Assembly: GCF_003691365.1 (NCBI RefSeq)
Contig: NZ_CP033087.1
Span: forward strand, 1,832,001-1,896,000
Direction: 5' to 3'
Source of the DNA: Commensalibacter melissae
Lineage (GTDB): Bacteria; Pseudomonadota; Alphaproteobacteria; Acetobacterales; Acetobacteraceae
Length of the DNA stretch: 64,000 nt
Under the pieces are notes generated by a model. It had not been told where the DNA came from and did not search any database. It saw only the letters and a program-made list of their open reading frames with translations. Position 1 is the stretch's first letter. The number at the start of each line of letters is the position of its first letter. This document shows, one piece after another, positions 7,130-13,883 of the stretch. A program made the translations under genes and the position numbers.

Positions 7130-7819
7130 TCATTCACTATCCATTGTTGATTTACGGAAGATATAACCTTGTCCCCATATTGTTGAAATAAAATCTTCCG
7201 CACCAGCATCTTGTAATTTTTTTCTTAATTTACATACAAAGACATCAATAATTTTAATATCGGGTTCTACATTGCATTTGTATAAATGGTTTAAAAGTGC
7301 CGCCTTTGTAATTAAAGTGCCCCGTTGTAAAATAAGCAATTCCAAAATAAGATATTCCTTGCCTGTCAAATGAACCAATGCTTTATTAACGAATACTTCA
7401 TGTGTTTCCAAATTGATACTTAATGCATCAATATGAATAATTTTTTTGGAAAATACTTTTTGGACACGTCTCAAAACCGCCTTGCATCTTGCAATCAGCT
7501 CATCCTCATAAAATGGAATTAACACATAATCATCCACACCTGCCTGAAAAGCTTTTATCTTATTTTCCAGATTATTTTGTCTGGAAACAACAATAATAGA
7601 AATCTTTTCATTTAATGCGCGCAATTCTCTAATGGTCGAAAAAAACAATTTATCCAAATTATTTCCTTCAACTATAATAAGATCATATTCATACAGATGA
7701 GCCGTTGATAATACCTCAATATCAAACGATACCCTATCGATAGAAAAATCTGTTACTTTAAGTTTTTGGTAGAATTCATGCTCTAAAAAAAAGATTTCTC
7801 CCATAAGAAGAACGTGCAT
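7130..7819 (-). CDS. CtrA-like response regulator with degenerate, Glu51 receiver
   Basis: OmpR/PhoB-type regulator: receiver domain about 1-115, winged-helix DNA-binding domain about 125-222. The C-terminal half matches Caulobacter CtrA very closely (VHLTGKEY, NHLY, KIIDVFVCKLRKKL, WGQGYIFR). Aligned without gaps to CtrA as I remember it, the phosphoacceptor Asp51 is Glu51, the acidic pair Asp8/Asp9 is Glu8/Ile9, and the essential Lys of the K-P-F motif is Ile101. Phosphorylation is therefore unlikely, and Glu51 is the change used experimentally to mimic phospho-CtrA. ATG 7819 follows a GGAG site. It may be a constitutive cell-cycle or envelope regulator. Confidence 0.85.
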   Translation of the reverse strand: MHVLLMGEIFFLEHEFYQKLKVTDFSIDRVSFDIEVLSTAHLYEYDLIIVEGNNLDKLFFSTIRELRALNEKISIIVVSRQNNLENKIKAFQAGVDDYVLIPFYEDELIARCKAVLRRVQKVFSKKIIHIDALSINLETHEVFVNKALVHLTGKEYLILELLILQRGTLITKAALLNHLYKCNVEPDIKIIDVFVCKLRKKLQDAGAEDFISTIWGQGYIFRKSTMDSE

Positions 7820-8000
7820 ACTTCTACTCCAGGTTATAAAATGAATTTAAAATACTACTATAAAGTGCATAAGTTTATAAAAAAAATCAACAAAAACTTA
7901 ATAATGATAATGATAAATTTGGAAAAACAATTTTTTTTCAACAACTTCGTAAATAATGTTGAAGTATTTATTATAAAAACCCCAACATTATAAATAAAAT

Positions 8001-8438
8001 CTATTCAGATTTTTTTCTAAATTTCTTTTTAATAAACTGCCATATAAAACTTCGTAAATATCCACCCAACGGCCCTGTAAGTGCAGTAATTAAAGTTGTC
8101 AGGGCAATTGAATCACGCAATTGCTTTAAATTATGGTTCCGAATCACCTTGGCTTCTATCTCTTCTTCACCAATTTTTGCCTGCAAGGCCAGATAGAAAA
8201 AGATACCAGCACACAAAATATCAAAAATTAGGATAATTAATGATGATCCCAAAAAACCAATATGAAACAACCAGCAACACAGCGCCGCCAAAACAGCATG
8301 CAAGGAAATTAAAACAAATAATCCAAATACTGCCCCTATACAGCATAACAGGATTTGCTTGCTTACTCTAATTGACTTTTTTTTCAAAAGCAGGAGCTCT
8401 GCATTCACTGCTGCTTTGCCAAATTCAACAATCTTCAT
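8001..8438 (-). CDS. DUF1469 / phage-holin-superfamily-III-like membrane protein
   Basis: 145-residue integral membrane protein with two strong hydrophobic segments (about 28-52 and 58-85), followed by a charged linker and a lysine-rich C-terminus (IKKKFRKKSE). Size, topology and the EVIRNHNLKQLRDSIALTT-like region after the membrane part fit the DUF1469 (YqjE-type) family. The gene pairs with the DUF883-like gene just upstream, as yqjE and yqjD do in enterobacteria, where the pair is stress-induced and ribosome-associated at the membrane. The function here is an inference from that pairing. Confidence 0.65.
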   Translation of the reverse strand: MKIVEFGKAAVNAELLLLKKKSIRVSKQILLCCIGAVFGLFVLISLHAVLAALCCWLFHIGFLGSSLIILIFDILCAGIFFYLALQAKIGEEEIEAKVIRNHNLKQLRDSIALTTLITALTGPLGGYLRSFIWQFIKKKFRKKSE

Positions 8439-12203: not shown

Positions 12204-13883
12204 ATGACAAGTGAAAATTTATTTGAAATCCCTGTACCTCTTATTATTGACGAGACCAACAAGAATGATTCCCTTAAAATCACTTTAAATAAAGGAAAAA
12301 CAATTTATATTGTTGGAGCGAATGGTTCCGGCAAAACCCGTCTGGCACGATTTATTGAAAAATATATCATCAAAAACAACGATAAAAATAAAATATATCG
12401 TATCAACGCACACCGTGCGATATTTTTAAATTCTTCCCAAATTCAAATAACAGAAGAAAAAGCAAAACAAACTTTGCTAGATAATTTTAAAAAAAATCGA
12501 CCTCAAATATTAACTCATGAACATACTAATCAACTAGAATTTTACAATGATAGTGATATTTTATTACAATACCTATTTTCAGAATTTGATAAAGTTGCCA
12601 AAGAATTTTATAATGATTACAACTCTAATCGTCCTCCTGAACAAAAACCGACAAGCAAACTAGCACAACTAAAATCCATATTTGAAAAGATCCTCCCTAA
12701 TAAACAATTAGAATACACCCTAGATACAATTCGAATTAAGGACACCGATAAAGAAGATTATTACCCCATTATAGAAGCAAGTGAGGGAGAACGTTCTGTT
12801 TTTTATTTAATCGGTCAAATCCTTTTTCCGGATCCTGGTACCCTGATTATTTTTGATGAACCTGAACAACATTTACATCCTTCCATCTTAACACCACTAT
12901 GGAATGAACTGAAAAAAATACGTCCAGATTGTGCTTTTATAACCATTTCACACGATTTAAATTTTATCGCCAATCAGGCAGGAAAAAAATATATTCTCAA
13001 AAAATACCAAAGAAATTTTCCTGAATCTGATAAATGGGATATAAAACCGCTTCCAGATAATATGCCGTTATCAGAGGAAATTGTTACTTTGATTTTGGGT
13101 AGTCGTCGTCCCATCCTATTTGTTGAGGGACAAGAAAACAGTTTAGATCAAGCTGTTTACCGCGCATGTTATCCAGAATGGACAATTATTCCAAGCAATT
13201 CATGTACAGAAGTTATTCATGCGGTTAATTCGCTTAACAACCATCCATCTTTAACTCGTATTAATTGTGCGGGTATCGTGGATGCTGATTATCGTGGTAC
13301 AGATGAAATACAAAAACTGAATAATCAAAATATTTATGTGCTCAACGTCCTTGAAATTGAAAATCTTTTCTTATTATATGATGTTCTCGAGATTATTGCT
13401 GAACTAGAGCAATATAACGATAAAACGAAAAAAGACAATCTGATTCAAGAGATAACCTCTCAACTTCTCGATACTATCAATAAAAATAGAAATTCGTATA
13501 TCGTGGAATATGGAAAATTACAATTAAGCAGATCATTTGCTAGACTTTCACCTTCTGATGATAAAATCAAGAAGCAGGAATCTTTAATTGAATTTTTTAA
13601 CAAAAGCTTTGATGAATTAAAAAATTCTTTTCAAGAAGATCTACAAAAAACTGAATACAATATTAACAAAGCAATTGAGGAAAAAAATATAAAAGAGCTA
13701 TTAAAATGGTATAATGGCAAAGGTGAAGGATTATCAATTATCAGCAAAATCTTGAAGAAACAAAAAAAGGAAGATTTTCTTAAATGGATAAAACGCTTAC
13801 TAGAAAATAGTAATGAAAATTTGATTGATGTATTAAAAAAACATTTACCAGAAATAAAAAATAATGCCAGAAATAAAAAATAA
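12204..13883 (+). CDS. ABC-type ATPase fused to DUF4435 TOPRIM domain, candidate phage-defence protein
   Basis: 559 residues in two modules. Residues 1-290 form an SMC/ABC-like ATPase: Walker A GANGSGKT (38-45), signature-like SEGER (193-197), Walker B TLIIFDEPE (213-221) and H-loop His250. From about 302 a TOPRIM-type DUF4435 domain follows: LFVEGQ with Glu309, GIVDADY with Asp360/Asp362 and LEIEN (383-387). OLD-type nucleases and the PARIS proteins AriA (ATPase) and AriB (DUF4435) use the same parts, and here they are in one chain. The C-terminal ~170 residues are Lys/Asn/Glu-rich helices of unknown role. The gene stands alone beside tRNA-Leu and looks richer in AAA codons than its neighbours. 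The defence role is an inference. Confidence 0.75.
   Translation: MTSENLFEIPVPLIIDETNKNDSLKITLNKGKTIYIVGANGSGKTRLARFIEKYIIKNNDKNKIYRINAHRAIFLNSSQIQITEEKAKQTLLDNFKKNRPQILTHEHTNQLEFYNDSDILLQYLFSEFDKVAKEFYNDYNSNRPPEQKPTSKLAQLKSIFEKILPNKQLEYTLDTIRIKDTDKEDYYPIIEASEGERSVFYLIGQILFPDPGTLIIFDEPEQHLHPSILTPLWNELKKIRPDCAFITISHDLNFIANQAGKKYILKKYQRNFPESDKWDIKPLPDNMPLSEEIVTLILGSRRPILFVEGQENSLDQAVYRACYPEWTIIPSNSCTEVIHAVNSLNNHPSLTRINCAGIVDADYRGTDEIQKLNNQNIYVLNVLEIENLFLLYDVLEIIAELEQYNDKTKKDNLIQEITSQLLDTINKNRNSYIVEYGKLQLSRSFARLSPSDDKIKKQESLIEFFNKSFDELKNSFQEDLQKTEYNINKAIEEKNIKELLKWYNGKGEGLSIISKILKKQKKEDFLKWIKRLLENSNENLIDVLKKHLPEIKNNARNKK

Follow-up and report, generated by a model that had tools for sequence, protein, structure and literature searches.

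The ctrA Gene and Its Product

The window considered here is a stretch of 64,000 nucleotides from Commensalibacter melissae, which contains at 7130..7819, on the minus strand, an intact open reading frame with an ATG start, coding for an atypical response regulator of the OmpR/PhoB family of 229 amino acids, assigned as a ctrA ortholog by NCBIfam models and by a CtrA tree. CtrA is the textbook cell-cycle regulator controlled by a phosphorelay, and the acetic acid bacteria (AAB) are important both in industry and as symbionts. The product comprises a receiver domain (residues 1-118; 7466..7819, minus strand), whose strand-helix order is reproduced in the AlphaFold2 model and which Pfam Response_reg recognizes with 31.9 bits, barely above the 30.2 cut-off, and a winged-helix DNA-binding domain (residues 125-223; 7151..7447, minus strand), which is well recognized by Pfam Trans_reg_C (67.8 bits) and contains the conserved stretch EPDIKIIDVFVCKLRKKL. 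The best of 48 NCBIfam families is the CtrA model NF045991 (RespRegCtrARhodob), with 215.7 bits; this score does not reach the equivalog cut-off of 350 bits of a model that is named for Rhodobacterales.

A phmmer comparison with the CtrA receiver of PDB entry 4qpj aligned residues 2-118 without gaps, as an earlier note on this DNA had proposed, and BLASTP against an alphaproteobacterial CtrA (L229) agreed at the pocket positions. In the 4qpj alignment Gly7, Glu8 and Ile9 lie opposite Glu-Asp-Asp, Glu51 lies opposite the acceptor Asp, and Ile101 opposite the Lys of the KPF motif. Codon 51 (7667..7669, minus strand) is GAA, coding for Glu where the phosphoacceptor Asp is expected; residues 8-9 (7793..7798, minus strand) are Glu-Ile, replacing the metal-binding Asp-Asp, and residue 101 (7517..7519, minus strand) is Ile, replacing the conserved Lys. 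The same note had read these residues, and the codon, exactly as found here; the proper alignment, which might have brought an Asp into the acceptor column, has Glu51 in that place. The combination of Asp51, acidic pair and Lys101 of the canonical CtrA pocket is thus absent from the ctrA product. Glu51 is not a sequencing accident, since the same residue is found in a second genome of the species (G122), in G040, in Commensalibacter papalotli and in C. intestini; the congener G173 has Asn51, and the open reading frame is intact in all six Commensalibacter sequences examined.

The alpha4-beta5-alpha5 face (residues 87-118; 7466..7561, minus strand) retains Lys87, Asp96, Asp97, Glu107, Arg111 and Arg118 in the alignment, so that the ctrA product displays the combination that marks atypical regulators, i.e., acceptor or pocket lost and dimer face kept. 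The C-terminus (...MDSE; 7133..7147, minus strand) is devoid of the small hydrophobic, Ala-containing end that is typical of most relatives outside the AAB. Individual domains are modelled with confidence by AlphaFold2 (mean pLDDT 85) but their arrangement is not (pTM 0.52), and for this reason no inference is drawn from the model on an open or closed state of CtrA; its Foldseek matches are spread over OmpR/PhoB regulators at large, with the HP1043 structure 2hqr at rank 30.

Orthology and Genomic Setting

The host genome (2.02 Mb) gave 12 receiver matches, only one of which, the gene at 7130-7819, carries by eye a CtrA-type DNA-binding half; a second, canonical ctrA, which the earlier note had advised looking for, is not present among them. 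The nearest named CtrA relatives, among the best 80 named loci, are those of C. papalotli (65%) and C. intestini (61%), and in both species the NAD kinase, the ORF at 8001-8438 and other neighbours are found around ctrA. Acetobacteraceae bacterium KSS8 (L219), in which CtrA has Asp51, likewise has ctrA flanked by NAD kinase and a relative of ORF 8001. The gap-free receiver, the CtrA-type DNA-binding domain and the common neighbourhood place the gene in the CtrA orthologous group, in line with the first description of it as a CtrA homologue; judged by these sequence features, it represents the ortholog of CtrA in a genome of Commensalibacter type. The tree was made up of CtrA rows only, and the branch of the window gene is long; due to long branches and skewed composition the position of Commensalibacter in the tree is unsure.

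The CckA-ChpT Relay in the Host Genome

A check of the genome for chpT, cckA, divK and cpdR had also been recommended. ChpT (PF10090) gave no match in the host, with a positive Caulobacter control, and DivK- or CpdR-like proteins were not recognized by eye among its stand-alone receivers. The 12 HATPase matches of the host comprise, by eye, eight histidine kinases, the remainder being GyrB-, ParE-, MutL- and HtpG-like. Against the CckA model NF046020, whose cut-off is 1000, the two kinases nearest to CckA reached 220.4 and 183.3 bits; the top one had an E value of 1.8e-64, and of 4.2e-64 against a CckA profile of the family. A C-terminal receiver is missing in one of the two and weak in the other, where it scores 24.8 bits and falls short of the Pfam cut-off. 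When the top kinase was compared reciprocally, other kinases were matched ahead of CckA in four of five CckA-bearing genomes, and in the fifth (G083) the two were almost level. No CckA-level kinase was therefore detected in the host genome by NF046020, the family profile or the reciprocal comparison, and the pair of ChpT and CckA that defines the canonical relay was not found there; GcrA is present. Elsewhere in the same genome (L138/L008; G000:C1, about 1457337-1459520, minus strand), a histidine kinase whose N-terminal receiver is degenerate precedes a stand-alone receiver of 135 amino acids with an intact acceptor pattern, a pair that by eye resembles a split hybrid kinase.

The host CtrA is similar to the canonical CtrA of the Caulobacter, Brucella and Rhodospirillales type in its gap-free receiver, conserved dimer face and matching DNA-binding stretch; it differs in lacking the acceptor Asp, the acidic pair, Lys101 and the Ala-containing end, and its host differs in having neither a ChpT match nor a CckA-level kinase. 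With no ChpT match, no CckA-level kinase and no usable acceptor pocket in CtrA, there is good support for the view that the host CtrA operates independently of the CckA-ChpT kinase route. The gene had been suspected to encode an “always-on, kinase-independent” CtrA: the second half of this description stands as far as CckA and ChpT are concerned, whereas the first is plausible but unproven.

Residue 51 and the Receiver Pocket in Acetic Acid Bacteria

A CtrA match was present in 198 family genomes, and the protein was read from 110 of them, namely the 30 best matches and 80 fetched ones; the remaining 88 matching genomes, some with too weak a best match, lie outside this sample, and the fractions given below are those of a sample biased towards similarity. 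The AAB side is defined as the 41 of 110 tree rows beyond a branch with support 100/99, where named records place the acetic acid bacteria. Residue 51 is Glu in 28 of these rows, Asp in 10, and Asn, His and Ala in one each, so that Asp51 is absent from 31 of 41; in the other 69 rows it is Asp in 67 and Glu in two. The alignment of receivers across Acetobacteraceae, proposed as a check on the initial observation, thus modified its scope: the residue loss was correct, but what had been described as a property of a single gene is a clade-wide trait of the AAB. A complete canonical pocket, with acids at both 8 and 9, Asp51 and Lys101, occurs in one of 41 AAB-side rows versus 64 of 69 others, and of the ten AAB-side rows with Asp51, nine are altered elsewhere in the pocket (8, 9 or 101). 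The single AAB-side row with the whole canonical pocket belongs to a genome (G013) with no detected ChpT.

Among the best 80 named loci, Glu51 is found in eight genera (Acetobacter, Acidomonas, Asaia, Commensalibacter, Gluconacetobacter, Gluconobacter, Komagataeibacter and Novacetimonas); the tree of named loci omits those named rows that are identical to an unnamed AAB row across 224 residues. In this set Glu51 is present in 8 of 11 Acetobacter rows, the others having Asp, His and Thr (His51 in A. pomorum, Thr51 in A. syzygii), in all rows of Gluconacetobacter (4/4), Novacetimonas (2/2) and Commensalibacter (2/2), in the single rows of Gluconobacter, Asaia and Acidomonas, and in 2/5 Komagataeibacter rows, the other three having Asp. 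The pockets of Commensalibacter have Ile, Thr or Asn at position 9 and Ile or Ala at 101, with Asn51 in one species. In Komagataeibacter (L180, L200, L207, L209, L231) both Asp and Glu occur at residue 51, together with Pro8 and Arg101, and the same alternation within one genus, again with Pro8 and Arg101, is seen in genus g60 (L065 and L070 compared with L059); in both genera, as read from the residues, an acid at 51 is retained and the phosphorylation pocket apparently is not.

Two rows outside the AAB side (L054 and L055, from G081 and G146 of genus g81) have Glu51 and His8 and are nested among Asp rows; this Asp51-to-Glu change is placed by the tree as a second, independent origin. Neither ChpT nor CckA was detected in these two draft genomes, which are 93% and 81% complete.

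Relay Components and Asp51 across the Family

Asp51 is present in every one of the 57 rows that have a clear ChpT; the 53 rows without a clear ChpT comprise 20 in which it is kept and 33 in which it is lost. When counted at E <= 0.001, ChpT matches fall on 59 Asp and 2 Glu rows; those of G009, G099, G130 and G192 (E 2.7e-4 to 9.8e-4) were classed as not clear, and the entropy comparison reported below is still based on 59 rows. A clear ChpT was found in none of the 41 AAB-side rows, and a CckA of at least 400 bits in none of them versus 43 of the 69 other rows; the CckA profile was built from 11 family members and the 400-bit line was set by us where the scores of other kinases start, a line that misses orthologs, as 16 of the 57 clear-ChpT rows fall under it. 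Some ChpT absences are likewise misses, since G087 and G164 have CckA without a ChpT match. The top AAB scorer inspected as a CckA candidate, a kinase of 757 amino acids in G025 (368 bits), was rejected and taken as a paralog, because other hybrid kinases were matched before CckA in five of five CckA-bearing genomes; the reciprocal comparison covered this one AAB genome and the host genome.

Fisher tests gave tiny p-values on rows that are related, and were set aside; the three to five independent pairs on supported branches have no statistical power for the link between relay and Asp51, which is therefore an association at the level of the clade and falls short of statistical proof. Eight rows outside the AAB side keep Asp51 with neither relay part clearly detected; two of these eight, G039 and G041, have a canonical pocket. 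A Rickettsia-labelled CtrA (L211) also has Asp51, ChpT not having been found in part of the Rickettsiales according to PMC2877005. These cases indicate that Asp51 can persist after ChpT is lost, provided that the relay loss there is real. Two genomes of genus g30 (G029 and G116; 1.9-2.1 Mb) gave no CtrA match and only weak matches to CckA models, an apparent loss of the pathway.

The absence of chpT in the AAB group was already published in 2010. Brilli et al. (PMC2877005) reported relay members missing to a varying degree in the Rhodospirillales of their cluster D, which had no chpT ortholog and had cckA by a best-hit search; in a 2021 survey of Rhodospirillales genomes (PMC8116508), ctrA, gcrA and ccrM were present in 72-82%, and chpT, cckA and divL in 27-36%. 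The accessible parts of these two articles make no mention of a changed CtrA acceptor, and no publication on a lost CtrA acceptor in AAB was found in a search of titles and abstract openings, whose coverage leaves out most subscription journals.

Dimer Face, Selection and C-Terminus

In the AAB-side rows the charges of the dimer face are conserved at 96, 97, 111 and 118 in 41/41 and at 107 in 40/41, with Lys or Arg at 87 in 40/41; here we assume that residue 87 has a role in this face and that the numbering of KdpE and CtrA is equivalent. The mean entropy of these six positions is 0.13 on the AAB side versus 0.05 in the 59 ChpT-matching rows outside it (E <= 0.001), while that of pocket positions 8, 9, 51 and 101 is 1.73 versus 0.12. 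Across the whole receiver the corresponding means are 1.62 and 0.87, and the ratio of receiver to DNA-binding divergence is 1.62 on the AAB side versus 1.30 in ChpT-matching rows. Roles of positions 96, 97, 107, 111 and 118 in KdpE are described in PMC4773095.

The dN/dS between C. papalotli and G040 is 0.04 for the receiver and 0.06 for the DNA-binding domain, and between C. papalotli and C. intestini it is 0.10 for both; where measurable, in these congener pairs, the receiver is under purifying selection. Between the window ctrA and C. papalotli, C. intestini, G040 or G173 the synonymous sites of the receiver are saturated, and the DNA-binding domain, where measurable against other species, gives values of 0.16 to 0.23; against G122 of the same species the values are 0.13 for the receiver and 0.26 for the DNA-binding domain, with one replacement in each. 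The small hydrophobic, Ala-containing C-terminal end, which we take to be the CtrA degron in Caulobacter, is present in 61 of 69 other rows and in 15 of 41 AAB-side rows; this departure suggests that ClpXP control of CtrA may be relaxed in AAB.

Regulon Motif, Flagella and SciP

The sites TTAA-N7-TTAA, the Caulobacter motif, had been named as those where binding of this CtrA should be sought. In 464 kb of the 2.02 Mb genome (20 segments of 20 kb plus the window) no excess of this motif was found, with 22 non-coding copies at spacing 7 and 15-30 across spacings 0-18, and the TTAAC form gave no peak at spacing 7 either; a regulon of this motif is unsupported in that portion, from which a small one would escape. 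By eye, no TTAA-N7-TTAA occurs upstream of ctrA (7820-8000). Flagellin gave no match in the four genomes of the genus of the window, but it is present in Glu51 genomes of the AAB side such as G022, G025 and G085, so that motility loss does not account for Glu51. SciP (PF06627) gave no match in 196 of 200 family genomes, and its absence is thus not clade-specific.

Proposed Mode of Action

The data above suggest that the host CtrA is probably phosphorylation-independent and uncoupled from CckA-ChpT, and that it would bind DNA as a phosphate-free dimer, in the manner of ChxR or HP1043. CtrA would have been uncoupled from the phosphorelay in the AAB lineage; once the relay was gone, the phosphoacceptor and the pocket could have varied freely, with Glu51 as the most frequent outcome, while the active-dimer surface and the DNA-binding domain would have been retained as the pocket drifted, an order of events (relay loss, then pocket change) that we infer. 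A variable pocket combined with a fixed dimer face and DNA-binding domain is indeed expected if the active dimer needs no phosphate, and the output of CtrA would then be set by its amount, by partners or by other allostery, and not by a kinase. ChxR of Chlamydia and HP1043 of Helicobacter are atypical OmpR/PhoB regulators that act free of phosphate and dimerize via alpha4-beta5-alpha5 (PMC3960148); unlike CtrA of the window, whose dimerization is predicted and whose ancestor was a phosphorelay output, they are not CtrA orthologs. Extended to the whole AAB clade, the reading comes close to an even chance without reaching it: CtrA would have become a kinase-free, constitutively dimeric factor, with Glu51 arising first, as nature's equivalent of the D51E allele made in the laboratory, pocket drift following and the dimer face remaining fixed, and with a separate Asp-to-Glu change in genus g81.

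A frozen phosphomimic, in which Glu51 imitates Asp-phosphate and keeps CtrA permanently on, as intended with the D51E allele, is a somewhat doubtful possibility. Glu is the commonest replacement (28 of 31 non-Asp rows of the AAB side), and in several Acetobacter sequences (L163, L164, L169, L172, L176, L178), as well as in G009, it occurs with Asp8-Asp9 and Lys101 intact; in such Acetobacter pockets Glu could act as a D51E-like phosphomimic. The laboratory allele is the identical substitution at the identical residue, and it is described as phosphomimetic in Caulobacter (PMC12186491) and Rhodobacter (PMC6363796); however, it resides in an intact pocket and relay, whereas the pocket of the window CtrA is otherwise altered and its relay undetected. 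Overexpressed D51E moreover slightly lowered gene transfer in Rhodobacter (PMC6363796), so that it is not a universal on-switch. The exact chemistry of Glu is not needed clade-wide, as indicated by the Asn, His and Thr variants (G173, A. pomorum and A. syzygii), by the Glu/Asp alternation with Pro8 of Komagataeibacter and by the altered pocket of Commensalibacter, in which the loss of Lys101 and of the second acidic residue, together with Asn51 in a congener, weakens a simple phosphomimic reading. Since positions 9 and 101 are altered and one species has Asn51, the active state of the Commensalibacter CtrA would have to be stabilized otherwise.

Decay, with a relic receiver and a CtrA heading for loss in a host with neither a relay nor flagella to control, is unlikely. 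The missing flagellin of the genus, the two g30 genomes without a CtrA match, the higher entropy and divergence ratio of AAB-side receivers, the lack of motif excess and a receiver dN/dS that is unmeasurable beyond the species in the window lineage agree with such decay; the intact reading frame in 6/6 Commensalibacter sequences, the receiver dN/dS of the two congener pairs, as low as that of the DNA-binding domain, and the near-invariant charges of the dimer face in 41 rows argue against it.

Asp56 is found in 40 of 41 AAB-side rows, but ChpT-matching rows conserve it just as well (58 of 59), and to our knowledge it is not an acceptor in known receivers. Phosphorylation of CtrA at another residue, or by an unrecognized phosphotransferase fed by a remaining kinase, is very improbable: substitutes for ChpT were proposed by Brilli et al. 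(PMC2877005) and the host has a kinase adjoining a stand-alone receiver, but the metal-binding acid at 9 and Lys101 are absent from the ctrA product.

If phosphate-free dimerization is correct, AAB keep CtrA minus its acceptor and seemingly minus the relay, so that a central switch would have been hard-wired by evolution; this would also answer the question raised by Brilli et al. in 2010 of how CtrA functions without chpT, in that phosphate may be dispensable. The natural variants of residue 51 (Glu, Asp, Asn, His, Thr, Ala) represent material for probing the requirements of receiver activation.

Other Feature in the Window

At 12204-13883, on the plus strand, the window codes for a protein of 559 amino acids with AAA_21 and DUF4435 domains, which gave a strong PADLOC match (365 bits) to the fused AriAB model, presumably corresponding to a PARIS-type anti-phage defence.
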